A DNA stretch of 21,368 nt from a virus: positions 1 through 21,368 of the IMG/VR virus record IMGVR_UViG_3300021963_000761; one strand, written 5' to 3'. Positions 4,641 to 21,147 of this stretch are shown here, in pieces. The notes under the pieces are model-generated. The model worked only from the letters and a program-made list of their open reading frames with translations. It made no database searches and had not been told where the DNA came from. The translations under genes were made by a program, and so were the position numbers. Position 1 is the stretch's first letter. Each line of letters starts with the position of its first letter.

Positions 4641-4666
4641 AAAAAAAAGGGTTGTTAAACCCTTTT
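4641..4666 (-). terminator. rho-independent terminator of the methyltransferase unit
   Basis: Stem AAAAGGGTT/AACCCTTTT (nine perfect pairs, four-base loop) at 4645-4666. On the minus strand it is extended by four more T (plus-strand A at 4641-4644). It begins inside the methyltransferase stop codon. The symmetrical A/T flanks could also serve the plus strand weakly, but no plus gene ends here. Confidence 0.85.
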
Positions 4667-5516
4667 ATTTAAATTCCATTTCCATTTGTTTATTTTGGTC
4701 GACAAAATGTTGAACTCGTTCTTTCGCAACTTTACTGTAGTTTTCACTCAATTCAATTCCAATCCATCGTCTTCCACTAATCTCAGCTGCAACCAAACTA
4801 GTTCCGCTACCAGCAAAAGGGTCAAGAACGACATCGTTCTTATAGGTAAGAATCTTAATCGCTTTCATTGGGATATCCATTGAAAAGGTTGCCTTAGTTT
4901 GTTGTTTGGTGTCCGCAAAGTATTCCCACTGACCATAAACCAAAGACATAAATTCTTTCTTATCTTCATCTTGATATACTGCTTTGGTTTTTACGGTACC
5001 ATCCTCCTGTTCCATGTCAACCATGTCGGCCTTCCATTGTGGCTCACCTTTAATTTTCTTAATCCTGTCTTTCTTATAAGCCAAGATAACACACTCTTTT
5101 GGATTGTAGATGTAAGGACTTGAGGGACTCATCCAAGAACCCCAAGCCGTGGTCTTACTTCTGTGTGGTGAATTCTCATCAAGGTCAACAAGACCATAGA
5201 ACTTAAACCCAACCTGTTTCATGATGGCCCAAAACTCTGACATGAACAATACTCGTCCACCTCTATCCTGTACGTTCACTTCGTATGGGATGTTTACGGC
5301 AATCCTACCATCATCTTTTAATGTGTTGTACGCTTCGGTTAACCATTGTCTCGTGAAGTCCCAATAGTCCTCCATACTCATTCTGTCGTCATGACTATCG
5401 TAATCAATTCCAACATTATATGGTGGTGATGTCACAACCAAATCAACAGATTCTAATGGTAATGTTTTCATTACCTCAATACAATCACCTTGTAATATTT
5501 TTCCTGTTTCTATCAT
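4665..5516 (-). CDS. site-specific DNA methyltransferase (N4-cytosine/N6-adenine, beta class)
   Basis: 283 aa. Catalytic motif IV is T-S-P-P-Y-N (residues 29-34) near the N-terminus, and the AdoMet-binding motif I is D-P-F-A-G-S-G-T (232-239) near the C-terminus, followed by W-I-G-I-E-L. This order (IV before I) defines the beta class. The T-S-P-P-Y form does not by itself separate N6-adenine from N4-cytosine methylation. The region between (about 35-225) holds the target-recognition segment. No restriction endonuclease is adjacent, so it is an orphan methylase, commonly used by phages to evade host restriction or to mark their own DNA. The ATG at 5516 overlaps the DUF3310 stop by 4 bp (ATGA), so translation is probably coupled. 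It is the last gene before the hairpin terminator. Confidence 0.92.
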   Translation of the reverse strand: MIETGKILQGDCIEVMKTLPLESVDLVVTSPPYNVGIDYDSHDDRMSMEDYWDFTRQWLTEAYNTLKDDGRIAVNIPYEVNVQDRGGRVLFMSEFWAIMKQVGFKFYGLVDLDENSPHRSKTTAWGSWMSPSSPYIYNPKECVILAYKKDRIKKIKGEPQWKADMVDMEQEDGTVKTKAVYQDEDKKEFMSLVYGQWEYFADTKQQTKATFSMDIPMKAIKILTYKNDVVLDPFAGSGTSLVAAEISGRRWIGIELSENYSKVAKERVQHFVDQNKQMEMEFK

Positions 5517-5737
5517 ATCTTATTATTCTTTAAATTATCTATTCGTCTTTGTAGATACCATAGTGCCTTATTAAGGTCTTGTAATTCTTTATCTGTTTCT
5601 TTTTTTCCCGCCCTTGAAATATACTTAACGGTATTTCCAAGATGGAAATCTAATTCCCACGCTTCAATAACTTTGATAGCTTCGTATGGATTATCTTCCC
5701 CTCCGTAATGTTGTGGGTGATTAACTTGTTCACTCAT
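5513..5737 (-). CDS. DUF3310 family protein
   Basis: 74 aa from the ATG at 5737. The longer reading from 5761 starts at TTG and is less likely. It opens with N-H-P-Q-H-Y (residues 5-10), the family signature, followed by E-A-I-K-V-I-E-A-W and L-G-N-T-V-K-Y-I-S-R-A-G-K-K and a charged C-terminal helix. DUF3310 proteins are very common in tailed phages. They are often labelled nucleotide kinase-like, but I know of no firm biochemical role. The start overlaps the end of the upstream membrane-protein gene by 8 bp, and the stop overlaps the methyltransferase ATG. An A/G-rich AAGAAAAAGAAG precedes the ATG. Confidence 0.9.
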   Translation of the reverse strand: MSEQVNHPQHYGGEDNPYEAIKVIEAWELDFHLGNTVKYISRAGKKETDKELQDLNKALWYLQRRIDNLKNNKI

Positions 5738-5891
5738 CTTCTTTTTCTTTATAAAAACCAATTTTAATTTGTTGATGCATTTCTTCTTTTAACGACCTAT
5801 TTTCTCTTTGAAGTGGTCTCACAATCATAAAGTACATTATGATTAAATTTGCTATTACTGTAATTATCATGATAAAATACATCCAAAACAT
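5730..5891 (-). CDS. 53-aa single-pass membrane protein
   Basis: A short ORF with an ATG at 5891. Residues 1-25 are almost entirely hydrophobic (MFWMYFIMIITVIANLIIMY), giving one membrane helix near the N-terminus. The remainder is charged (R-P-L-Q-R-E-N-R, K-E-E-M, ending K-E-K-E-D-E) and probably forms a cytoplasmic helix. The stop overlaps the DUF3310 start by 8 bp, and the gene begins 27 bp after the previous stop, so it fits the operon exactly. Codon use resembles its neighbours. Function is unknown. Small proteins of this shape in phages include spanin parts, i-spanins and superinfection-exclusion proteins. No lysis gene is next to it, so none of these is favoured. Confidence 0.7.
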   Translation of the reverse strand: MFWMYFIMIITVIANLIIMYFMIVRPLQRENRSLKEEMHQQIKIGFYKEKEDE

Positions 5892-7116: not shown

Positions 7117-8871
7117 TTAATCAATTCTCATTACATAAAAGGTCACACCTTCAACATCGATTTCATCTGCACTTCCATCATAACCATTTAATGTGGTACC
7201 ATATCCATCTTCTTCAACAACCGCTTTGATGAACGCATCTTTATCTATGTAGTTATTCCATTCTAACCCCCACTCATTCATAAAACCTTCCACATCATAT
7301 TTTGCTTCATCAACTCTTCTTTCAATTATATCTTCAAGTAACTCGTTAGGGAAATCACCTTCAGGGTCTTCTTTAATATCTTCAATCTCTGTTTCCATGT
7401 CGGTAATCTCATCATTCAACTCATCAATTCTTTCTTCAACATCCTCATCATCCTCACCATCTATACTACCTTCCAATTTGGACACTAACTCTCGATATTT
7501 TTCAATCTTGTCCTCTAAAATTTTAATTTGTTCTTCTTGTTTTTTAGATAAATTTCTATCAGAATCATCCAAATAAGATTCGGGACTCTCATAAACATCT
7601 TGGTTAAATAAATCTTCGGCATATGAAATAACCGCATCCTCATCAATATATTGTTTTACAAATTCAGGTCTGAAAGCCTCAAATCCTACATCATCAAGTA
7701 GTTGGTCAACATATTCATAAGAGCTTGATTCCATCTCATTCTCATCCCCAACCACATATCTACGGTCTTCTAACTCAGGAGCACCAATCACTTCAAACTC
7801 CGACGCATCATAATACCTACCTGTTGGGATAATATTATATACATCTATCTTGTTATCTAATTCGGTTAACTCATCTTCCAACTCACTTATCTCATCTAAT
7901 AAATCTTGTCTAACTTCTTCGTCATTATCATATTCCGATTGAAGTCTGGTAATTTCATTTTCAATTCTTGCAATCTCGCCTCGGTCTTGATTGGTCATTA
8001 CTTCAATCTCACCTTCTATCTCAAGAACTCGTAATAACGCATTTGCCTTTAAACCAGTCTCATCTGTATCAGGTAAATCCCATTCACCGTTTTCACGTCT
8101 TTCTTGAGCTTGAACTTCTCTTTGTCTCAATATTTGTGCTAGTCTTACTTTTTCTAATCGTTCTCTTTCTTTTCGAGCTAATTCTTTATCAGTAAAAATC
8201 TTAACCTGTTCAGGATAAGTTGATTTAATATATTCATCAACCGAACTTAAAATCTCGTTTAACTTGTTTGTTCCAAAAATCCAACCACCATTAACTGTTG
8301 CATCCAAAGCATCATAATAAGTTTTGTCCCCATCGAATTTTTGAAGTAGGGCAACTTTATAGAATTTATTATCACTTGGAGCCGTTCTATCCAAGATGTA
8401 AAATAACTTACCGTCTTGATTGTATCTGTTGAATTGGTGGTCAGAATCAGCAGTAGTACACCATTTAGTACCTTTACCATAATAACATGATGAGTCATGA
8501 GTTAATGGATTAACCACAAAAAATCTACCATCATCATAAACAACATTCCCACCTTCAACTTTCTTAACCACTCGTCTTTGTCTTCCCTCGTATTCTGAAA
8601 GAGCAGACAATAGTTGTCCTAAATTTTTGTATTGGAATAAATCTGTGATTGGAAGATTACTGGATATTTTTTGAAACTTATCTAAAGCCTGACTAACCTT
8701 TGAAAGGTTGTCCTCAAAATTAACCATGTCCAAGTTTTTACCAACCCAGTCCAAATATTTTTGTGGGACCGCCCCAAGAATTTTATTTACATTCTCTGTA
8801 CCAAACTTTTGTGAGTACTTGGCTTTGAAGTCGTCAACTCGTCCTTCTTGTATTAATTTTAAAAAATCCAT
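7117..8871 (-). CDS. large acidic coiled-coil protein with a WCTT-motif domain, unknown function
   Basis: 584 aa from the ATG at 8871. A longer reading starts with TTG at 8943 and would overlap the promoter area. Residues 1-100 are helical. About 105-210 form a compact domain with Y-Y-G-K-G-T-K-W-C-T-T-A, then Y-N-Q-D-G-K-L-F-Y-I-L-D and K-F-Y-K-V-A-L-L. I recall this pattern from phage proteins of unknown function. Residues about 215-365 and 440-520 are Glu/Asp-rich long helices, probably coiled coils. The C-terminal 60 residues end in a beta-rich segment. No enzymatic motif is certain. The first in-frame ATG is preceded by A-rich sequence and by both a TAnnTTTG box (8922-8915) and TATTTATC (8892-8885). 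Confidence 0.7.
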   Translation of the reverse strand: MDFLKLIQEGRVDDFKAKYSQKFGTENVNKILGAVPQKYLDWVGKNLDMVNFEDNLSKVSQALDKFQKISSNLPITDLFQYKNLGQLLSALSEYEGRQRRVVKKVEGGNVVYDDGRFFVVNPLTHDSSCYYGKGTKWCTTADSDHQFNRYNQDGKLFYILDRTAPSDNKFYKVALLQKFDGDKTYYDALDATVNGGWIFGTNKLNEILSSVDEYIKSTYPEQVKIFTDKELARKERERLEKVRLAQILRQREVQAQERRENGEWDLPDTDETGLKANALLRVLEIEGEIEVMTNQDRGEIARIENEITRLQSEYDNDEEVRQDLLDEISELEDELTELDNKIDVYNIIPTGRYYDASEFEVIGAPELEDRRYVVGDENEMESSSYEYVDQLLDDVGFEAFRPEFVKQYIDEDAVISYAEDLFNQDVYESPESYLDDSDRNLSKKQEEQIKILEDKIEKYRELVSKLEGSIDGEDDEDVEERIDELNDEITDMETEIEDIKEDPEGDFPNELLEDIIERRVDEAKYDVEGFMNEWGLEWNNYIDKDAFIKAVVEEDGYGTTLNGYDGSADEIDVEGVTFYVMRID

Positions 8872-8884
8872 TATATCTTTAATT

Positions 8885-8892
8885 GATAAATA
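8885..8892 (-). promoter_or_regulatory. TATTTATC motif ahead of the 584-aa gene
   Basis: Minus-strand TATTTATC, one base from the recurrent octamer, 13 bp before the ATG at 8871. Confidence 0.25.
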
Positions 8893-8914
8893 TTCTTTTA
8901 GTCTTATATTTCCA

Positions 8915-8944
8915 CAAAGATAGTATTTATTATCAGGAAACAAA
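8915..8944 (-). promoter_or_regulatory. weaker Bacteroidota-type promoter
   Basis: Minus strand TTTG (8944-8941), 18 bp, TATCTTTG (8922-8915). The -7 box is perfect but the spacer is two bases shorter than in P1-P4. The start would be near 8908, giving a leader of about 37 nt to the ATG at 8871. It lies in the 96-bp divergent region shared with the plus-strand gene at 8968. Confidence 0.45.
8924..8931 (+). promoter_or_regulatory. TATTTATT motif ahead of the 53-aa plus-strand gene
   Basis: GTATTTATT on the plus strand, 36 bp before the ATG at 8968, overlapping the spacer of the minus-strand promoter. The two divergent genes may therefore compete. Confidence 0.3.
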
Positions 8945-8967
8945 TAAACAATCTAAAATACAATACC

Positions 8968-9129
8968 ATGGGATGCGGATGCAAAAATAACGGAAACCAA
9001 TCACAACAGCCTTCACCTCAACAGGTTCAACAGGCTGCAGCTCAAAGACAACAAACTAACGAAAGTGTTAAAGCGGCTATCAAGAAAACGGTTGAAAAGT
9101 ATTACAACGTAAACAAAACGAGTAAGTAA
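8968..9129 (+). CDS. 53-aa Gly/Cys-tagged, Gln-rich small protein
   Basis: A short ORF beginning MGCGCKNNGN, then a Gln/Pro/Ala-rich linker (residues 11-29) and a basic helix (V-K-A-A-I-K-K-T-V-E-K-Y-Y-N-V-N-K). The M-G-C-G-C opening is one I recall from small proteins in marine and T4-like phages. Two cysteines separated by glycine could bind metal or form disulfides, but function is unknown. Support for a real gene: ATG start, its own hairpin terminator at 9151-9182, and a divergent promoter region upstream. Confidence 0.75.
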   Translation: MGCGCKNNGNQSQQPSPQQVQQAAAQRQQTNESVKAAIKKTVEKYYNVNKTSK

Positions 9130-9150
9130 TCTAACACATTTGAAAAAATT

Positions 9151-9182
9151 AAGGAGGGGGCAATGAAAATTGTCCCTTTTTT
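9151..9182 (+). terminator. rho-independent terminator after the 53-aa gene
   Basis: GGGGCAAT and ATTGTCCC pair around a GAAA loop, extended by A/G against T to about 14 pairs, ending in six T (9177-9182). The AGGAGG inside the stem also resembles a Shine-Dalgarno site before ATG at 9163, but that reading gives only 15 codons. Confidence 0.85.
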
Positions 9183-9184
9183 CG

Positions 9185-9192
9185 TATTTATA
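9185..9192 (+). promoter_or_regulatory. TATTTATA motif before the 328-aa gene
   Basis: Exact octamer preceded by G, ending 4 bp before the ATG at 9197 and directly after the terminator. Same arrangement as at 1065-1072. Confidence 0.35.
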
Positions 9193-9196
9193 TTAT

Positions 9197-10183
9197 ATGA
9201 CAATGGATGATATAATTGATTCGTTTAATAACGGAGAATTAGATGTTGAAGGATATTTCAACGACTACGACACTTTTTTTAATATATTAAAGAAAAGAGG
9301 TCTTATGTCTCAAGTAAACCCTGATGCTCCTGACTCTGAAGAATGGCAGAACGAATATCTTATTTGGTTATATTCCAATGACAAAGAAAAGTTTGATAGG
9401 TACATTGAAAAATTCTTAGGTGATGTTGAAATTGTTAATGGTAATCCATACTTAATTCTTAATTCAAGAGGTGAGCTTTCCAAATTATTTTGCACATTTA
9501 GAAATGAATTAAGACCAGAGACCATAGAATCTATATTAGACGGAGACTACGATAACTATTATGATTATTCAACAGATGATGTTTATCGTGATGTGATTGA
9601 GGAGTTAACCAAAGAAAATCTCAGAAGACTTAAAGAATATATTATTGATACTTTAAAAGGCCAACAGATACCAACAAGTACTGAAGTTCTTGAATCCATT
9701 GCAAACTCTCAAGGTAATGATTATGTAACTGTTGATGAAACAAACATCGATGAAATTGTTGACGATAAAGAAACAATGAAAGAATTAATGAATAATGAGT
9801 TAATTGACTTGAGGGGTGAATTATATAGTGTACATAGTAGTGCATATGATTCAGCTTATGCCGATGACTTATATGATACAATATGGGATAAACTTGAGGA
9901 GTTTTTTCAAGGTCCTGGAGAATGGTTATCAAGACCTCACACATATAAAAAAGATACTGAAGTTCAAAAATTTAGAGTACCCATTCACAATTTCTATAGT
10001 AACATTTTAGATTACCTACAAGATAATAAAGCTTACGGTCATTCAGGTACCTTAGAGTATCATGGTGATTACTTAAGTATACTACATGAAGGATGGGAAT
10101 GTTTAAAAGCGTGGGCTCCTGATTATCCTGATTCAAGAAAAGTTGATAAAAATATCAACGAATATTTTTCAGACTATATTTAA
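9197..10183 (+). CDS. acidic protein of unknown function, 328 aa
   Basis: Start chosen at ATG 9197 (M-T-M-D-D), with ATG 9203 also possible. An upstream TTG reading would run through the terminator. The protein is strongly acidic (many Asp/Glu/Tyr runs such as D-G-D-Y-D-N-Y-Y-D-Y near residue 115) and mostly helical, without signal peptide, membrane segment or enzymatic motif that I recognise. The C-terminal third (H-G-D-Y-L-S-I-L-H-E-G-W-E) is more hydrophobic and may be a separate domain. It is convergent with the fibre operon and shares a two-way terminator with it. Confidence 0.7.
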   Translation: MTMDDIIDSFNNGELDVEGYFNDYDTFFNILKKRGLMSQVNPDAPDSEEWQNEYLIWLYSNDKEKFDRYIEKFLGDVEIVNGNPYLILNSRGELSKLFCTFRNELRPETIESILDGDYDNYYDYSTDDVYRDVIEELTKENLRRLKEYIIDTLKGQQIPTSTEVLESIANSQGNDYVTVDETNIDEIVDDKETMKELMNNELIDLRGELYSVHSSAYDSAYADDLYDTIWDKLEEFFQGPGEWLSRPHTYKKDTEVQKFRVPIHNFYSNILDYLQDNKAYGHSGTLEYHGDYLSILHEGWECLKAWAPDYPDSRKVDKNINEYFSDYI

Positions 10184-10187
10184 ATAA

Positions 10188-10218
10188 AATAAGGGATTAA
10201 ATTAATCCCTTATTTTTT
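10188..10218. terminator. bidirectional terminator between convergent genes
   Basis: AATAAGGGATTAA (10188-10200) pairs perfectly with TTAATCCCTTATT (10202-10214), 13 pairs with a single-base gap, followed on the plus strand by more T. The minus-strand side is followed by an A/T-rich run with fewer T. The right arm encodes the last codons and stop of the third fibre gene. Confidence 0.85.
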
Positions 10219-13190
10219 GCAATACTTTCAAGTTGTGTTAATTTTTCTTCTTTAATATCTAAAAGAACTGATTGTTCTTTAATTGCTTCAATACATAATG
10301 CAATGATGTCAGAATATTTTACTTGGAATATGGTTTCTTCACTACCAAACACAACTTCAGGTAATACGTGATTAAGTTCTTGGGCGATGAATCCAATATC
10401 TTCTTTATCTTTTTTACTTAAATCAAAAAGATATTCATCTTTCCAAAAATATCTAACCCCTCTAATTTTATTAACTTTTTCTATTGAGTTAATAATTGGT
10501 TTAATGTCTTTTTTAAACCTTCTATCTGATGGTCCAGGAGCACCTGTGTCTCCAGTCGGACCAGTATTACCTTGAGCTCCTTGAGCTCCAGAAACCCCTT
10601 GTGCACCTGTAGGTCCTCCACCTGCAACTCCTTGAGCTCCGAGAGTACCTTGAGCACCTATAGGCCCTGTTGGTCCAGTATTACCACTATTTCCTTGAGC
10701 TCCCGTATTACCCTGAGCTCCAATTCCAGGAAGTCCTTGAGTACCTTGAGCACCTTGAGCACCTGCGAAGTTTGGTCCTTGGAACCCCTGTCCACCTGTA
10801 TTACCTTGAGCTCCAACACCTCCTGTTGCAATAGCAGGTCCCGTAGCACCTTGAGCCCCTTGAACTCCTTGTCCACCAACTGAACCTTGAGAACCTTGAG
10901 CACCTTGAACTCCTTGCCCACCATTACTTCCTACACCTCCTTGAGAGCCTTGAGAGCCCTTATTTCCTTGAGCTCCTTGTCCTCCTTGAGCTCCTTGATT
11001 ACCTGTTGCACCTGGAGGACCTGTGAATCCTTGAGAACCTTGTCCTCCTGTAGGACCGACATTTCCAAAATCTCCTGGAATACCTTTACCTCCTTGAGCA
11101 CCTTGTCCACCTTGAGCTCCTTGGTTACCTACGTTTCCTTGAGAACCTTGGGCACCTTGCGAACCTTGACCTCCTTGAGCTCCTTGGTTACCCGTATTAC
11201 CTTGAGAACCTTGGGCACCTTGCGAACCTTGACCTCCTTGAGCTCCTTGGTTACCCGTATTACCTTGAGAACCTTGAGCACCTTGTGAACCTTGACCTCC
11301 TTGGGCACCTTGAGCACCTTGAGCACCTTGAGCACCTTGTCCTCCTTGTGAACCTTGTCCTCCTTGAGCACCTTGGTTACCTACGTTTCCTTGAGAGCCT
11401 TGAGCTCCTTGTGAACCTTGTCCTCCTTGGGCACCTTGGTTACCTACGTTTCCTTGAGAGCCTTGAGCTCCTTGTGAACCTTGTCCTCCTTGAGCTCCTT
11501 GATTACCTGTTGCACCTTGTGAACCCTTACCTCCTTGAGAACCTTGCCCTCCTTGAGCACCTTGGAATCCAACGGCTCCTTGGGAACCTTGAGCCCCTTG
11601 TGAACCTTGTCCTCCTTGAGCTCCTTGATTACCTGTTGCACCTTGTGAACCCTTACCTCCTTGGGAACCTTGCGCTCCTTGAGCTCCTTGGCCACCTATG
11701 TTTCCTTGTGAACCTTGGGTACCTTGTGAGCCTTGTCCTCCCTGAGAGCCTTGAGCACCTATATTTCCTTGAGAACCTTGGGCTCCTTGTGAACCTTGTC
11801 CTCCCTGAGAACCTTGAGCACCTTGGTTACCTTGAGCACCTTGGGCTCCTTGTGAACCTTGACCTCCTTGAGCTCCTTGGTTACCTGTTGCTCCTTGAGA
11901 ACCCTCACCTCCTTGTGAACCTTGTCCACCTTGAGCACCTTGAAATCCAACAGCTCCTTGAGCTCCTTGAGCTCCTTGTGAACCTTGACCGCCTTGAGCA
12001 CCTTGGTTACCTGTTGCTCCTTGAGAACCCTTACCTCCTTGTGAACCTTGACCTCCCTGAGAACCTTGAGCTCCTTGAGCACCTTGAGCTCCTTGAGCAC
12101 CTTGAGCACCTTGTCCTCCCTGAGCACCTTGGTTACCTACGTTCCCTTGAGTCCCTTGAGCTCCTTGTGACCCTTGTCCACCCTGAGCACCTTGGTTACC
12201 TACGTTCCCTTGAGTCCCTTGAGCTCCTTGTGACCCTTGTCCACCCTGAGCACCCTGAGCACCCTGAGCACCTTGGTTACCAACATTACCTTGAGCACCT
12301 TGTCCTCCTTGAGAACCTTGACCACCTACGTTTCCTTGTGAACCTTGAGCTCCTTGCGAACCTTGACCTCCTTGAGCACCTTGGTTACCTGTTGCTCCTT
12401 GAGAACCTTTTCCTCCTTGTGAACCTTGTCCTCCTTGCGCTCCTTGGTTACCTGTGGAACCTTGTGAACCTTGAGCTCCTTGTGAACCTTGTCCTCCTTG
12501 AGCTCCTTGGTTACCTGTGGCACCTTGTGAACCCTTACCTCCTTGAGACCCTTGACCTCCCTGAGAACCTTGACCACCTACGTTACCTTGAGACCCTTGA
12601 GCCCCTTGTGAACCTTGACCTCCTTGTGAACCTTGGGCTCCTTGAGCTCCTTGAGCACCTTGTCCACCTTGAGAACCTTGTCCACCTTGAGAACCTTGGT
12701 TACCTACATTTCCTTGAGTCCCTTGAGCCCCTTGCGAACCTTGACCTCCTTGTGAACCTTGAGAACCTTGAGCTCCTTTAAGTCCTTGAGCTCCTTGGTT
12801 TCCTATACCACCTTGTGAACCTTGACCACCTACGTTACCTTGAGAACCTTGAGCCCCTTGATTTCCTGTGGCTCCTTTACCACCTTGAGCACCTTGAGAA
12901 CCTTGTACTCCTTGTGCCCCTTGAGCACCTGTAGGCCCTTGAGGTTGAGCACTACCTAACCATCCAGTAGTTCCAATTAAATTTCCAAAGTTATTAATAA
13001 GAAATCTAGTTAATCTTAAATTAACATTAACTCGGTAATTTGGATAAGTATTATCCATGGATAAATAAGTGGTAGAACCTCTCTTAAATTTTAGTGTACC
13101 AGATTCAATAACCCAATTGGTTTGAGTTGAAGTAGTATCAAAGAAATTAATCGTCCCACCTGAAGGTATTATTACTATATTTTCAGCCAC
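10197..13190 (-). CDS. collagen-like phage fibre with S74 chaperone domain (fibre C, uninterrupted stalk)
   Basis: 997 aa. Residues 1-84 are a globular head starting [11 protein letters not shown], a signature shared with the two upstream fibres, so it is probably the virion attachment end. Residues 85-887 are Gly-X-Y triplets with [12 protein letters not shown] and GNV dominating. Charged residues are nearly absent except a Lys in recurring GGK. Residues 888-997 form a peptidase S74 intramolecular chaperone: [10 protein letters not shown], then D-I-G-F-I-A-Q-E-L and L-P-E-V-V. By analogy with endosialidase, Ser888 and Lys893 would carry out self-cleavage just before Ser888 after trimer folding. 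The C-terminus is a heptad-like helix. Its start overlaps fibre B by 8 bp. It is probably a tail or whisker fibre, and the order of the three in the virion is unknown. Confidence 0.95.
10530..12938 (-). repeat. collagen stalk C: mostly 63-bp (21-residue) tandem units
   Basis: Most of the stalk is built from seven-triplet blocks of the pattern [12 protein letters not shown] followed by GAQ-GSQ-GNV or GGK-GSQ-GAT. Blocks of 15, 18, 24, 27 or 42 residues mark insertions or deletions of whole triplets, so the GXY register is never broken. Lys-bearing and Lys-free blocks tend to alternate, which gives a 42-residue period in places. Confidence 0.85.
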
Positions 13191-16100
13191 TTATCTTATC
13201 CTTTAAATTTTTTATTCTATTATATATCGATTCAATTCTGATTTGTTGTTCTTTAACACTACCCACACCTAATGTAACCATTAAGTCATATTGAACCGAT
13301 TTAAATCCATCTTTATCTGTAAATACCAAATTAGGTATTACTTCTTCAACTTGTTGGGCAATTACACCAATTGATTCTCCTTTAAATGCTTTTGGTGATG
13401 ATATTATTGGATTATTTTTAATTTTAAAATGTTCATCATCCCAAATAAAAGTTACACCTTCAATTTGTTTTGTAACATTTAATACATTATCAAGTTTTTT
13501 GATATTATCCTTAAGTCTTCTATCTGATGGAGGACCTGTAGGCCCTTGAGCTCCTTGTCCACCTTGAGCCCCTTGAGCTCCTTGTGGCCCTACATTACCT
13601 TGAGCACCACCACTTGAACCTTGAGAACCTTGAGCTCCTTGAGAACCTTGAGCTCCTTGAGCTCCTGCAGAACCTGCAACTCCTTGAGCTCCTTGAGCTC
13701 CTTGAGAACCTTGTCCTCCCGTGGTTCCTTGAGCACCTGTTGCACCCTGAGCTCCTTGAGTTCCTTGACCACCTTGAGCACCTTGTGTCACTCCTTGGCT
13801 ACCTTGAGCTCCTTGAGCTCCTTGAGCTCCTTGAGCTCCTTGATTTCCTTGAGCTCCTTGAGCACCTACAGGACCTGCAGTACCTGAACCTTGAGCTCCT
13901 TGATTTCCTTGAGCTCCTTGCACCGCTCCACCAGGTCCCTGAGAACCTTGAGCACCAACATCTCCTGTATCACCTTGTGCACCTTGAACACTTCCTGGAA
14001 ATCCTTGTCGACCCTGAAGACCTTGAGCTCCTTGAGCTCCTTGAGCTCCTGTATTCGCTCCTTGAACACCTTGTGCTCCTTGAGCCCCTTGCGCTCCTTG
14101 AGCCCCTTGTGCCCCTTGAACACTTCCTTGAGCACCTTGTGAACCAACATTACCTTGGGCACCTGTAGCGCCTTGAGCCCCTTGAACACTTCCTTGAGCC
14201 CCTTGTGAACCAACATTACCTTGGGCACCTGTGGCACCTTGGGCTCCTTGGGATGCACCTTGGGCTCCTTGTGAACCAACAGCTCCTTGTGAACCTTGGG
14301 CACCTTGGGCTCCTTGGGATGCACCTTGGGCTCCTTGAGCTCCAACATTACCTGTTGGACCAGTATTACCTTGAGCTCCTTGGGATGCTCCTTGAGCCCC
14401 TTGGGACCCCAAAACTCCTTGAGCACCTTGGGCTCCTTGAGCCCCTTGAACACTCCCTTGAGCACCTTGAGCTCCTTGAGAACCTTGAGCACCTGTATTA
14501 CCTTGAGCACCTTGTGATGCACCCTGAGCTCCTTGTGAACCAACATCTCCTTGTGAACCTTGAGCTCCTTGAGCTCCTTGGACACCTCCTTGAAATCCTT
14601 GAGCTCCCTGAGAACCTTGAGCTCCTGTATTACCTTGAGCTCCTTGAGCGGCACCTTGTGCTCCTTGAGAACCTTGAGCTCCTTGAGAACCTTGAGCTCC
14701 TTGGGCTCCTTGAACTCCTCCTTGGGCACCTTGGGAACCTTGAGCTCCTTGAGCTCCTGTATTACCTTGAGCTCCTTGTGATGCACCTTGAGCACCTTGT
14801 GAACCTTGAGCTCCTTGAGCCCCCGTATTACCTTGAGCACCTTGTGATGCACCTTGAGCTCCCTGAGCTCCCTGAACACCTTGAGCTCCCGTATTACCTT
14901 GAGCACCTTGAGCAGCACCTTGAGCTCCTTGTGAACCTTGAGCACCTTGAGCACCTTGAGCTCCCTGAGCACCTGTGTTAGCTCCTTGAGCTCCTTGAGC
15001 TCCCTGAGCACCTTGAGCTCCTATATTACCTTGTGCACCAGTATTTGCACCTTGAGCTCCTTGTGAACCTTGAGCTCCTTGTGAACCTTGAGCTCCTTGA
15101 GCCCCTTGAGACGCTCCTTGAGCTCCTTGAGCCCCTGTACCACCTTGAGCCCCTTGGTTTCCTTGAGCACCTTGAACTCCACCTTGAGCTCCTTGAGCTC
15201 CTGTACTACCTTGTGAACCTTGAGCACCTTGAGCTCCTTGAACTCCACCTTGAGCTCCTTGCGAACCCTGAGACCCTTGAGCCCCTGTGTTACCTTGAGC
15301 ACCTTGTAAAGCCCCTTGAGCACCTATGTTACCTTGAGCTCCTTGAACACCTTGGGCACCCTGAGCACCTTGAACTCCACCTTGAGCTCCTTGAGAACCT
15401 TGAGCTCCTTGGGCTCCTGTGTTACCTTGAGCACCTTGAGATGCACCTTGAGCTCCTTGGGCACCTGTATTACCTTGAGCTCCTTGAGCTCCCTGAGCTC
15501 CCGTATTCGCACCTTGAGCACCTTGTGAACCAGTCGCTCCTTGTGAACCTTGAGCTCCCTGAGCTCCCGTATTCGCTCCTTGAGCTCCTTGAGAACCTTG
15601 AGCTCCTTGTGAACCTTGAGCCCCTTGGGCTCCTGTGCTCGCTCCTTGAGCTCCTTGGGAACCTTGGGAACCTTGAGCTCCCGTATTACCTTGAGCACCT
15701 TGAACACCTCCCTGAGCCCCTTGAGCTCCCGTATTACCTTGAGCTCCCGTATTACCTTGAGCTCCTTGGTTTGCTCCTTGAGCCCCTTGAGACCCTTGGT
15801 TTCCTTTAGCACCTTGTGCTCCTTGAGCTCCTGTATTTGCCCCTTGTGCCCCTTGAGCCCCGACATCACCTTGAGCTCCCTGAGCCCCTTGTGCTCCTGT
15901 AACACCTTGTGAACCTTGAGCACCTTGAGCACCTTGAGCACCAATTGCACCTTGTGCCCCTTGAACTCCTTGTGCCCCCTGAGCACCAGTTACTCCTGTA
16001 TTACCTTGTGCCCCTGTACTACCTTGAGCACCTTGAGGTCCTTTAATACCCGCTGTCGGTCCAACCCAAATAGCCGAAGAATCAATCATTTGAGTACTTC

Positions 16101-16329
16101 CCACATATAATCCACCATTAGTAACACTTGAACCTGATGAAATTACCGCGCCACTTAAAGTAATCACCAAACCTGCAGATACAGTTGAAGATGAAAGCGA
16201 TAATGTTGGATTACTAAAAGCATCAGAGATAACATTAAACTGCAACTTATTAGTACCATCATCAAAAACAAAATGTGGGTTGGTATTTGAGGTCGTACCT
16301 GAAGGGAATATTATAACGTTAGATGCCAT
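13183..16329 (-). CDS. collagen-like phage fibre with S74 chaperone domain (fibre B, periodically interrupted stalk)
   Basis: 1048 aa. Residues 1-96 are a Ser/Thr-rich beta-type head starting [11 protein letters not shown] and ending S-A-I-W-V-G-P, close to fibre A in plan. Residues 97-934 are a collagen-like stalk. Between residues 145 and 804 this is thirty consecutive 22-residue units, each six GXY triplets plus one four-residue GXYZ. Residues 935-1048 are the S74 chaperone: [11 protein letters not shown], then [10 protein letters not shown] and a C-terminal helix, with Ser935 and Lys940 expected to drive self-cleavage. Residues near 975-985 ([11 protein letters not shown]) form a loop longer than in fibres A and C. 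It overlaps fibre A by 11 bp and fibre C by 8 bp, so the three are translated from one message. Confidence 0.95.
13918..15897 (-). repeat. collagen stalk B: thirty 66-bp (22-residue) tandem units with GXYZ breaks
   Basis: Counted by hand from residue 145 to 804: 30 units, all exactly 22 residues, and the total closes to the residue on the start of the chaperone domain. Each ends in GANT, GANQ, GAST, GASQ, GAAQ, GALQ, GGVQ, GSVQ or GAVQ, the only place where Gly spacing is four instead of three. A further 25-residue unit of the same kind (ending GVTQ) follows at about 825-849. Confidence 0.92.
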
Positions 16330-19300
16330 ATTTTAATTTGGACTCAATAAATTCCAATTCTTTATCAATATCTTCAATAAATACTTGTTGTTGTTTTATG
16401 GCTTCAACCAAAACCGCATTTAATTTAGTATATTCAATATAATAATAACCATCAGAATTAATTGAAACTAATTCAGGGAAATATTCTTTAACTTCTTGAG
16501 CAATTAATCCGATTGTATGTAATTTTTCTTGTTCTTGAAGTGAATCGTATTGTCTTAACTTATCATTCCAATCATACTCAACCGCATCAATCATCATTAA
16601 TTTTTCTAATGAATTAGTCAATGTTTGAACACCCCTTTTTAATCTGGAATCTGATGGTGTACATGAAGTACTTACACCACTATTACAACCTGATGGGTCT
16701 ATGTCACCACAATCAGGAGGAAAAGTTGGCTGACAAGTATAAAATCGTTGCCCGTAAGGCCAATCAGAAACTGGAGTTTGACAATTAGTTTGGTCTAAAT
16801 AATAACACTGAGAAATATTAGTAGTACAAGGATTTTCAGACCAAACAGAAACTCTACTAACTGAACCTGCACAGACATCAACACAATCTCCCGCAATCCA
16901 AACATCAAAATTCATACACGTGATTCCTGCAGGTCCAGTATCCCCCTGAGCCCCTTGTGCTCCTGCAGCTCCTTGAGCCCCTTGAGCCCCTTGAGCTCCT
17001 TGAGCCCCTGTTGATGAAGTTCCCGATGCTCCTTGAGCGCCTTGGTTTCCTATACCACCTAAAGGCCCAATAGTAATATTATTTGTACCTTGAGCTCCTG
17101 TATTACCTTGTGCCCCTTGAGGTCCCAATGGTCCTGTATTACCTTGAGGTCCTTGAGACCCTTGAGCTCCTTGAGCTCCTAACGCACCTGTAGGACCTCT
17201 ATTCCCTTGGGCACCTTGAGCGCCTTGAGCTCCCTGAGGACCTATTTTACCTCCAGCACCTTGAGCACCTGTTGGTCCAATACCTCCTTGAGCACCGATA
17301 TTACCTGTAGCACCTTGAGGTCCAGGAACACCTGTACCACCTTTAAGTCCTTGGGCTCCTTGGTTTCCTACACCACCTTGAGGTCCCACATTTCCTTGAG
17401 AACCTATCGCCCCTTGAGCACCTAGAGGTCCAACCCCACCTTGAGCACCAGTATTACCCGTACCACCTTGAGAACCTTGTGCCCCTTGTGGTCCTACCGC
17501 ACCCTGAGGTCCGACATTGCCCGTATTACCTTGAGTCCCTTGGGCACCTTGAGGTCCTGTATTACCTTGTGGTCCAACATTACCTGTATCTCCTTGAGTT
17601 CCTTGAGCTCCTGTGTTTCCTGTATTACCTTGAGCTCCTGTGTTTCCTGTGTTACCTTGAGCTCCTTGACTTCCTTGGTTTCCTGTATTTCCTTGAGCTC
17701 CTGTGTTTCCTGTATTACCTTGAACTCCCTTAGGTCCTTGAGGTCCTGTATTACCCTGAGCTCCCGTATTACCTGTCGCTCCTTGAGTACCTTGAGCACC
17801 TATATTTCCAGTATTACCTTGAGGTCCGACATTACCCGTTGGTCCTGTATTACCTTGAGCACCTTGTGGCCCTGTATTACCTTGAGCCCCCGTATTACCT
17901 GTTGCTCCTTGGGTACCTTGAGCACCTGTGTTTCCCGTATTACCTTGAGGTCCTATGTTTCCCTGAGCACCTTGGTTACCTTTATCACCAGTCACTCCTG
18001 TATTACCTTGAGCCCCTGTGTTTCCTGTATTACCTTGAATACCTTGAGCACCTGTGTTTCCTGTATTACCTTGCGGTCCAACATTTCCTTGAGCTCCTGT
18101 ATTACCTTGAGCTCCTTGAGGTCCTGTGTTACCTTGAGCTCCTGTGTTACCTTGAGCTCCTGTGTTACCTTGAGCTCCTTGTAGTCCTGTATTACCTTGA
18201 GCACCCGTATTTCCTATTGCACCTGTGTTACCTTGAGCTCCTTGAGGTCCTGTGTTGCCTTGAGCACCTGTGTTACCTGTGGCACCTTGAGCCCCCTGAG
18301 CACCTACATTACCTGTGGCTCCTTGAGCTCCTGTATTACCTGTGGCTCCTTGATTACCTTTATCTCCAGTCGCACCTGTATTACCTTGTGCTCCTGTGTT
18401 TCCTGTATTACCTTGAGCCCCTTGAGCTCCTGTGTTTCCCGTATTACCTTGTGCTCCTGCGTTTCCTATATTACCTTGAGCCCCTTGATTACCTTGAAAT
18501 CCAAGTCCACCCTGAGGTCCAACATTACCTGTATTACCTTGAGTTCCTTGAGCTCCTGTGTTACCTGTATTACCTTGTGGTCCAACATTTCCTTGAGCTC
18601 CTTGATTTCCTTGAGCCCCTTGAGGTCCTGTATTACCTTGAGCTCCTGTGTTACCTTGAGCACCTTGATTTCCTTGATTTCCTACGTTACCTTGAGCACC
18701 TTGTGGCCCAACATTTCCTTGAGCACCTATATTACCTTGAGCCCCTTGAGGTCCTGTGTTACCTTGGGCACCTGTATTACCTGTATTACCTTGAGTACCT
18801 TGAGCTCCCGTATTTCCCGTGGCTCCTTGAGCTCCCGTATTTCCCGTAGCCCCTTGAGAACCTTGTGCTCCAACATTACCTACAGCACCTTGAGCACCTG
18901 TATTCCCTACAGCTCCTTGTGCACCTTGAGCTCCTGTATTTCCCGTAGCACCTTGAGCTCCAGTGTTACCTTGAGCCCCTACATTACCTTGAGCACCTTG
19001 TGGTCCTGTATTACCTTGAGGTCCAACATTTCCTTGAGAACCTTGTGGTCCCGTATTACCCTGAGCACCTGTATTACCCTGAGCTCCTGTATTACCCTGA
19101 GCCCCTTGGTCACCTTGTGAACCTTGAGCTCCAATACTTCCTTGAGCTCCTGTATTACCTTGAGCTCCTGTATTACCTTGAGCTCCTTGAACATTTGTCG
19201 CCCCTTGAGAACCTTGAGCTCCTTGAGCTCCTACGTTTCCTTGAGCGCCAGTTACATTGGCATTACCTTGAGCTCCTTGAGCTCCCGTACTTCCTTGAGC

Positions 19301-19645
19301 ACCTTGTGGTCCCGTATTTCCTTGAACCCCTTGTGCTCCTTGAGCACCAGCAATATTAGTTGTTGGTCCAATCCAATTTGAAGTTCCATTAATTACTTGT
19401 GTACCTCCAACAGAAAAATAATCCTTAACATTTAAAGTATCACCTGATATTAAAGAATTGGTTGGGTCAACATAAATTGATACAGGATATGGTGACGCAC
19501 TATTACCACTAAACGCAATCGCTGCAGTGTTTAACACACTTATAGATAAAATAAAATTATTTCCCGTACCTATAAAATCAATATGTGGTATATGATTTGC
19601 TAATGGAGTACTATTACTTGGGTATATCGTTATATTCTTGGCCAT
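16319..19645 (-). CDS. collagen-like phage fibre with Cys-rich module and S74 chaperone domain (fibre A)
   Basis: 1108 aa, first and longest of the three. Residues 1-99 are the head ([11 protein letters not shown], ending S-N-W-I-G-P). Residues 100-908 are GXY triplets rich in GNT, GAQ, GPQ and GNV. Breaks appear only near the start ([12 protein letters not shown]) and near the end (around GTNNIT and GTSST). Residues 909-997 are a non-collagen module with ten cysteines. Residues 998-1108 are the S74 chaperone ([11 protein letters not shown], then T-I-G-L-I-A-Q-E-V and Y-F-P-E-L-V), with Ser998 and Lys1003 as the expected self-cleavage pair. After cleavage the Cys-rich module would form the exposed distal tip. 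TATTTATA lies 19 bp upstream of the ATG. The stop overlaps the fibre B start by 11 bp. Confidence 0.95.
16655..16921 (-). other. ten-cysteine module at the tip of fibre A
   Basis: Encodes residues 909-997 of fibre A. Ten Cys in 89 residues, with several Trp/Tyr/Pro, whereas the other 1019 residues of fibre A contain none. It lies between the last collagen triplets and the predicted self-cleavage serine, so it would form the distal tip of the mature fibre. Fibres B and C lack it and pass from collagen straight to the chaperone. Confidence 0.8.
16925..19348 (-). repeat. collagen stalk A: irregular GXY triplets
   Basis: A long run of Gly-X-Y with GNT-GAQ and GNT-GPQ pairs, with GNT-GNT-GAQ recurring at uneven spacing. 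I see no fixed super-period like those of stalks B and C. More Pro (GPQ) is present than in the other two. Confidence 0.85.
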
Positions 19646-19763: not shown

Positions 19764-20525
19764 ATGGTTTTAAAATCACCAAAAAGTAAATTATCCATCG
19801 TAAACTTATTATCAGATTTCATATTAAACAAAATCCCAAAAGAAGAACAAACAATTATTCAAGTTGTTGACTGTTATAATTTCTATGTTATTAAAGGTAA
19901 AACAACTCATGCCGAGCCATTAGACTTGGCAAAAGTTAGAGATGAGTTTATTTCAAAATACGAGGAATTTCTTGGTGAATATAAAATCTCACACACCATA
20001 GATTTAATTGAGTATGACTCAAAAATTAAACCTTTAGACACATTAAGTTTCCGTTATTATTATGGTTCAGATAATTGTTCTTATAGTATGATTCAATCCA
20101 AATCATATCTTGAAAATCCATCTATATCATACGTCCATGACCAAGTATTTAAACAAATGGAAGATGACGACTCTTTGGTTCACACATCAGAGTTTCCACA
20201 TGGGTATTCGTTGTCTCAGGGTCGTTTACTATATTATTATGGTAAACATATATTCTATAACATCCCATCATCATACCCTATTAATTCATTAATATTTAAT
20301 CTGTCAACAAACAAAGAAGAATCTGGTGACCCAGTATTTTCTGTGATAAATTTAAATCAAAAAGTTGATGAGGTTTTAACTTCAGCAATTTTGGATGTGT
20401 TTGATTTCGACATGTCTTGGTTAAATACGGAAATAAAAAAAGTGGATTGGTCTATTGAATTAACCAACCCACTTCAGGATTATGACTTTCTAAAAAAGAA
20501 AGTTGATGGTTTTGTTATCTTTTAA
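19764..20525 (+). CDS. protein of unknown function, 253 aa
   Basis: Not recognised. The N-terminal part (residues 30-75: I-I-Q-V-V-D-C-Y-N-F-Y-V-I-K-G-K-T, then L-D-L-A-K-V-R-D-E-F) has an alternating beta/helix pattern, and the rest is a Tyr/Ser/Asp-rich mixed fold. There is no signal peptide or membrane segment. The ATG at 19764 is preceded by A-rich sequence (AAAAGAATGTATC). The plus gene and the convergent glutaredoxin gene share their stop region (4-bp overlap at 20522-20525), and no terminator hairpin is evident between them. Confidence 0.7.
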   Translation: MVLKSPKSKLSIVNLLSDFILNKIPKEEQTIIQVVDCYNFYVIKGKTTHAEPLDLAKVRDEFISKYEEFLGEYKISHTIDLIEYDSKIKPLDTLSFRYYYGSDNCSYSMIQSKSYLENPSISYVHDQVFKQMEDDDSLVHTSEFPHGYSLSQGRLLYYYGKHIFYNIPSSYPINSLIFNLSTNKEESGDPVFSVINLNQKVDEVLTSAILDVFDFDMSWLNTEIKKVDWSIELTNPLQDYDFLKKKVDGFVIF

Positions 20526-20821
20526 ACAAGACCTATTTTTTTTCTGTGTTCTTTGATAATAGAAACAGCCTCACTTAGCTCATCGTAATTTCTTTCAGGA
20601 GCATATAAGAATGACTCATGTGATTCTTCATTCCCTTCAATAATCAAAAGAGCAGGAATCATGTCGTTGTCAGTAATCTCAACAAAAACATTATATTCTT
20701 CCTCATATTCCTCGATGTCTCGGTCAAAGAATTCAATCCCTTCGTTTACCAACATTTCTTTAAAGTCAGTACAAAAAGGACATCCCTTCATTGTATAGAC
20801 AACAACACTTAAATCTTTCAT
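20522..20821 (-). CDS. glutaredoxin-like protein
   Basis: 99 aa with thioredoxin-fold order: strand V-V-V-Y-T, active site G-C-P-F-C (Cys14 and Cys17), helix, strand, then a cis-proline site M-I-P-A (Pro56). C-P-F-C is typical of phage and bacterial glutaredoxins or NrdH-like proteins that supply electrons to ribonucleotide reductase. The middle (E-E-Y-E-E-E-Y-N-V-F-V) is unusually acidic, and the glutathione-binding T-V-P and G-G-x-D motifs of classic glutaredoxins are not clear, so NrdH-like use of thioredoxin reductase is equally possible. The ATG is 5 bp after the thioredoxin stop, so the pair is co-transcribed. Confidence 0.85.
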   Translation of the reverse strand: MKDLSVVVYTMKGCPFCTDFKEMLVNEGIEFFDRDIEEYEEEYNVFVEITDNDMIPALLIIEGNEESHESFLYAPERNYDELSEAVSIIKEHRKKIGLV

Positions 20822-20826
20822 AGTTA

Positions 20827-21147
20827 TTAGTTTAACATTCCAAGGACTTCTGTTGGTGACATAACACCAGCTCTTGAAAATACTTCAGAACCTTCCTTGA
20901 ATATTTTTATTGTTGGTACACTTCTGATTCCCAACTCTCTCATAAAGTCCATGTCACTATCAACATCGAATTTATAAATACCATATTTTGGTCTGTCAGT
21001 TGATTCACTAATCAATGACTCATTAACTTTAGTTAGATTATTTAACATAACCTTACATGGTCCACACCAAGTGGCATATAAGTCCAATACGAAGTTTTCT
21101 CCGTTACTAATCTTTTCTCTTAATTCATTTGCTGTTAGTTGTTCCAT
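20827..21147 (-). CDS. thioredoxin
   Basis: 106 aa, normal thioredoxin length. The active site is A-T-W-C-G-P-C-K (Cys28, Cys31), the strand pattern F-D-V-D is at 60-63, and the cis-proline is S-V-P-T-I (Pro78), followed by I-F-K-E-G near 82-86. It reduces disulfides. Phage thioredoxins serve ribonucleotide reductase or act as replication cofactors. Its start lies inside the previous CDS (23-bp overlap). The adjacent glutaredoxin suggests a small redox unit linked to deoxynucleotide synthesis, although no reductase gene is inside the window. Confidence 0.93.
   Translation of the reverse strand: MEQLTANELREKISNGENFVLDLYATWCGPCKVMLNNLTKVNESLISESTDRPKYGIYKFDVDSDMDFMRELGIRSVPTIKIFKEGSEVFSRAGVMSPTEVLGMLN

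Follow-up and report, generated by a model that had tools for sequence, protein, structure and literature searches.

Collagen fibers of phages, bacteria, and animals

The closest described relatives of the proteins reported here are the collagen-like tail fibers of phages, which combine the collagen repeat (PF01391) with a C-terminal chaperone domain, Peptidase_S74 (PF13884), and are represented by PHROG families and by the Synechococcus phages S-CRM01 and DSL-LC02. GAQ-rich GXY triplets, the C-terminal S74 chaperone, and matches to tail fibers are common to these proteins and our locus. Unlike our locus, the named phage collagens that we examined have few and irregular breaks in the repeat, no matched set of three genes, and no 22-residue period. 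The S74 domains of known tail fibers are homotrimers.

The breaks at issue are steps of four residues, GXYZ, among the GXY triplets; in the usual nomenclature, such a step is a G3G break (three residues between glycines), that is, a one-residue insertion. Each GXY triplet or GXYZ step is counted below as one level. Periodic G3G breaks, with a period of 19 or 22 residues, are also found in single-gene bacterial collagens (GPT...GPSGGPP) on prophage-like or genome contigs, including Thermoactinomyces sp. DSM 45892. These differ from the locus described here in being encoded by one gene with near-identical, Pro/Thr-rich units, no S74 match, and no partner chains. The Thermoactinomyces protein (L388) is a 1,601-aa open reading frame with ~17 near-identical 22-residue units, in a genome without an S74 match. 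Four other single-gene collagens (L367, L372, L369, and L375) carry a period-19 GXYZ array of near-identical GPTGPTGITGATGPSGGPP units and, unlike our array, look freshly duplicated. Another group of phage collagens (L180, L182 to L185, L376, and L384) shares the periodic one-residue insertion and the richness in Gln but has a period of 25 residues (8 levels), a single large collagen open reading frame in the loci examined, different ends, and a break that is always GTTQ.

Among animal proteins, complement C1q offers the nearest parallel to the fiber that we propose, with three different chains (A-B-C) and a collagen stalk that contains an additional residue (PMC9898670, PMC5632799); for the phage fiber, we infer the mixing of chains. 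An extra residue is reported to have kinked the C1q stalk, and bends are reported at interruptions of triple helices (PMC9898670). C1q has a single kink site and no periodic array, its flanking domains are unrelated, and it is of animal origin; no homology is claimed. The C-terminal globular domain of C1q is absent from the phage chains, for which the Pfam scan gives Collagen and Peptidase_S74 only.

A strictly periodic break in the middle of three collagen genes

The window, i.e., the whole 21,368-nucleotide stretch analyzed here (IMG/VR virus record IMGVR_UViG_3300021963_000761, positions 1 to 21,368), carries on its minus strand three tandem collagen/Peptidase_S74 genes at 19645-16319, 16329-13183, and 13190-10197, which overlap head to tail and share one domain plan. 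Their products, called chains 1, 2, and 3 in order of transcription, all open with a common start motif and end in Peptidase_S74. Pfam scanning yields collagen matches with E values of 1.9e-77, 1e-73, and 7e-112 in the three chains and Peptidase_S74 above the Pfam cutoff in each (16466-16654 in chain 1, 13324-13527 in chain 2, and 10350-10529 in chain 3, all minus). An SD-R-K start motif is visible in the C-terminal domains, the chains match PHROGs tail-fiber families, and the nearest solved S74 relative is 6f45, a long tail fiber distal subunit (E = 1.9e-7).

Periodic one-residue breaks occur in chain 2 alone; the other two chains are almost unbroken. Chain 1 (1,108 aa) has a collagen region of about 269 to 270 levels (16919-19348, minus) with 4 irregular breaks, and chain 3 (997 aa, GTG start) has a nearly unbroken one of about 268 to 269 levels (10527-12938, minus). 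Chain 2 (1,048 aa) consists of a 93-aa N-terminal domain (16051-16329, minus), whose start motif is paralogous to those of chains 1 and 3, an 841-aa collagen region, and the C-terminal S74 domain. An automatic Gly-phase parse of these 841 residues finds 32 four-residue steps, 30 of which close consecutive 22-residue units (six GXY and one GXYZ, a break every 7 levels) at aa 145 to 804, nucleotides 15897-13918 of the minus strand; all 29 successive spacings are exactly 22. The earlier note had read this stretch as 30 perfect 22-residue units (660 residues) of a collagen stalk that is broken with strict periodicity, about once per 6 nm. The units are indeed exact in length, and we agree with that reading of a periodic phage collagen stalk.

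The breaks read GASQ, GANT, GGVQ, GSVQ, GAAQ, GALQ, and others, each being a common triplet into which a small residue (A, G, or S) has been inserted after the Gly; GAQ is by far the most frequent triplet of the chain. Although constant in length, the units vary in sequence, with a mean pairwise identity of 0.74 in protein and 0.71 in DNA. No pair of units is 95% identical or more in DNA, and synonymous differences occur in 42% of the codon pairs that encode the same residue. The 66-nucleotide unit length has thus outlasted sequence divergence and does not reflect fresh duplication; recent unit duplication in this array is ruled out by the synonymous divergence. Chance and an assembly artifact are ruled out as well: many independent metagenomes show the period, and no two units of the array are identical.

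Other features of the window include a Cys-rich stretch present in chain 1 alone (10 Cys in ~85 residues, 16640-16918, minus), between the collagen region and S74, which could be a candidate interchain disulfide knot. Genes for thioredoxin (20827-21147) and glutaredoxin (20522-20821) are close by on the upstream side. Elsewhere are genes for an N6/N4 DNA methylase (4665-5516), a DUF192 protein (1076-1423), and a DUF3310 protein (5513-5761), and a weak match to DHH phosphoesterase, below the Pfam cutoff, at 1415-2812.

The period recurs in a group of uncultured phages

Scanning all of IMG/VR for four breaks in succession returned 44 stretches of period 22 on at least 40 contigs, 9 of period 19, 9 of period 25, and 3 of period 16. 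Among prokaryotes, a four-break period-22 array was found in 1 of 84,980 species genomes, the Thermoactinomyces gene with its near-identical units. None of 88 phage collagen regions in an unselected sample has even two equal successive GXYZ spacings. Among named phages, a search of 50,697 records turned up no relatives of the N-terminal domain, the best collagen records inspected lack such an array, and neither DNA searches nor the N-terminal-domain search yielded a periodic gene set. A tblastn search of named phages with the whole protein gave matches to the S74 domain only, the collagen part presumably being filtered. Within one group of uncultured phages, the pattern is therefore common; elsewhere among phages, it was not found at the sensitivity used, barring the few period-19 and period-25 cases. 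The search for such 22-mers in other phage collagens that the earlier note had proposed located them in at least 40 uncultured contigs and found none among the named phages. The rarity expected there holds for the named phage collagens examined and fails for uncultured ones, in dozens of which the pattern recurs, so that it is no solitary oddity.

The break itself can change while the spacing stays: in L038, L132, L137, and their relatives, it is sometimes the seven-residue GAQSSVQ, in which the Gly of the break step is lost and the 22-residue spacing is kept. Nor is 22 an essential number, a possibility that we rejected, since the locking of partner chains described below persists in arrays of period 19 and at break spacings of 6, 8, and 14 levels.

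The three chains have equal numbers of levels

Counted in levels, the three collagen regions of the window are equal: 270 in chain 1, 270 in chain 2, and 269 in chain 3, the last after trimming of 4 spurious non-collagen levels at the N terminus from a raw count of 273. Counted in residues they are 810, 841, and 804, a difference that approximates the number of breaks. The same holds in other phages. Level triples are 195/195/194 in L338, 302/302/303 in L038, 306/305/306 in L392, 225/224/223 in L396, 215/216/215 in L390, 154/154/153 in L148, and 161/161/160 in L199, with 158/158/157, 144/143/142, and 168/169/168 in further uncultured phages and 188/187/186 in the period-19 family. Across the three-gene sets compared, the broken chain carries about one surplus residue per break, and the level counts stay equal while set length ranges from 118 to 306 levels.

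How often would such agreement arise by chance? The chains agree within 2 levels in 13 of 23 three-gene sets; when partners were shuffled between phages, the mean was 0.07 and the maximum 2 in 10,000 trials. Among adjacent collagen genes without periodic breaks, used as a control, 2 of 14 pairs agree to within two levels. A difference of more than 5 levels was seen in 7 of the 23 sets (among them L141, L341, L173, L393, L394, L395, and L400), some of which have uncertain level parsing, e.g., the L393 count includes long bridged gaps. Every untruncated record of the main family that was searched, the window included, has exactly three S74/collagen genes. Two further loci, L399 (G017, 8000-13500) and L219, encode three S74 collagens of similar level counts (86/93/94) without periodic breaks, possibly a matched three-chain set without marks.

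A tree of the C-terminal domains has three chain clades, each chain grouping with its own kind across phages. The tree requires 7 changes of chain label, compared with a possible minimum of 2 and a mean of 33 after shuffling; it is based on 121 columns, and many of its inner forks are unresolved. Within the main family, the broken chain always falls in the chain 2 clade, even in L173, in which gene order is permuted. Recent duplication of one gene into three is ruled out by this tree. Because the chains are old orthologues, their equal length does not stem from recent gene duplication; the three chains are old and change length together.

Partner chains are locked to the breaks

In chain 3, one level of every seven has Gly at the X position (GGQ), and its offset from the chain 2 break is fixed. 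GGQ occupies this offset at 20 of 20 breaks in L338, 15 of 15 in both L348 and L389, 27 of 28 in L396, 34 of 36 in L392, and 29 of 32 in the window, against a base rate of 0.18 to 0.29; L038 has Gly there at 35 of 38. Irregular arrays follow the same rule. In L394, whose breaks are mostly 14 levels apart, GGQ is found at 9 of 11 breaks versus a rate of ~0.2 seven levels away, and in L148, with spacings of 6 to 9 and 25 levels, it is found at 8 of 12 breaks (base rate, 0.08). The best offset is -2 levels in the majority of sets, with -1 for four or five others and 0 for two; the chain starts are thus not level aligned, and these values depend on the collagen start assumed for each chain. Chain 1 has a G-(N/H)-(not Q) triplet one or two levels ahead of the break, at 29 of 32 breaks in the window, where it takes the form G-N-(T/V).

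We permuted the order of intervals within each phage, a test in which irregular arrays alone have power. Combined by Fisher's method, the P values are ~3e-11 for chain 3 and 6e-6 for chain 1; the phages were treated as independent and are related, so these values overstate independence and are indicative only. L141 and L341 give no significant locking. In the independent family with a 6-level period (period 19; L158), partner chains carry GPV-GVQ and G(A/F)Q-GVP at fixed levels before nearly every break. Irregular breaks toward the C terminus coincide weakly between chains (P = 0.03 for exact coincidence and 0.13 within one level) and are not relied on here. The layout of the N-terminal end is fixed: the breaks of chain 2 lie at level 23 from the collagen start and then at 30 and 37 in eight phages, and chain 1 has a lone break at level 9 to 11 in about ten phages.

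A proposed heterotrimer with a register code

We consider it likely, judging from these sequence patterns, that the products of the three tandem genes are the different chains of a single heterotrimeric A-B-C fiber, a very long tail fiber or whisker, in which the breaks would set composition and register. Equal levels, bulging extra residues, and compensating partner residues are what an A-B-C triple helix predicts. In such a fiber, the chains would wind around each other. Their three S74 domains, which are intramolecular chaperones, would align them and, to go by the family, probably nucleate the trimer. The extra residue of chain 2 would bulge out and add no rise, making this chain longer in residues and not in levels; the breaks would probably be bulges of a single strand within a mixed trimer rather than hinges of a homotrimer. 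Where chain 2 bulges, chain 3 would give room through its Gly at the X position, and Asn/His-Thr/Val/Pro of chain 1 would form a cap. This handshake, repeated every 7 levels (~6 nm), would block wrong registers and homotrimers. It would be needed because nearly all other triplets are the interchangeable GAQ, GSQ, and GNT, so that unmarked chains could slip by whole triplets or self-associate. The most likely main role of the breaks is thus to select chains and hold them in register, and small evenly spaced bends may be a by-product or a second use. That locking is kept with a period of 6, 7, or locally 14 levels suggests that the match between chains outweighs the number 22.

The main rival, which we regard as unlikely, is a bundle of three homotrimeric fibers of equal length lying side by side, with levels matched by lateral packing and each break a three-chain bulge. 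Side-by-side packing would also lead one to expect equal levels and locking, and S74 is homotrimeric in known tail fibers, 6f45 being the nearest solved relative. It leaves unexplained why the gene number is constantly three and why the break is confined to one chain, and packing to a single level over very long fibers is less natural than register between chains. The earlier note saw a homotrimeric stalk whose periodic breaks act as hinges or kinks tuning flexibility or binding. Exact periodicity and the capacity of interruptions to bend triple helices (PMC9898670) speak for this reading, which we hold to be less probable still: it predicts neither equal levels in two neighboring genes nor partner triplets that track irregularly spaced breaks. 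The periodic phage collagen stalk of that note stands, and its homotrimer hinges are improbable in view of the matched levels and locked sequence of two neighboring genes. The matched set of three chains, the near-unbroken partner genes, and their locking to the breaks had been missed there.

Least probable, and in our view very improbable, is a neutral origin, in which a GXYZ-bearing unit was duplicated and homogenized without any function for the period. Expansion by unit duplication is known from tandem-repeat genes, and near-identical GXYZ arrays exist in single-gene bacterial collagens such as L367, L372, and L388. The units of the window are instead old, as their divergence and lack of near-identical pairs attest, and never depart from 66 nucleotides; moreover, the period and level counts are conserved across orthologues and covary with two other genes.

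Implications

In the open-licence literature, we found no description of a phage or prokaryotic collagen that is heterotrimeric. With slightly less assurance than for the heterotrimer itself, we propose that this phage fiber would be the first heterotrimeric collagen outside animals. In it, one strand would bulge by one residue at every 7th (or 6th) triplet, complementary residues of its two partners would read the bulges, and these would serve as a register code along 100 to 260 nm of degenerate sequence. By analogy, the fiber would work like the heterotrimeric collagens of animals, to which it is unrelated beyond the collagen repeat. Controlling the register of heterotrimers is difficult in the laboratory (PMC8968730, PMC10404678); if the proposal is true, it would open a bacterial-expression route to defined heterotrimers. 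The code would also be readable: in dozens of natural cases, residues of two chains can be predicted from where the third has its one-residue insertion. For the phages themselves, it would pose an evolutionary puzzle, that of three genes changing length together, level by level.
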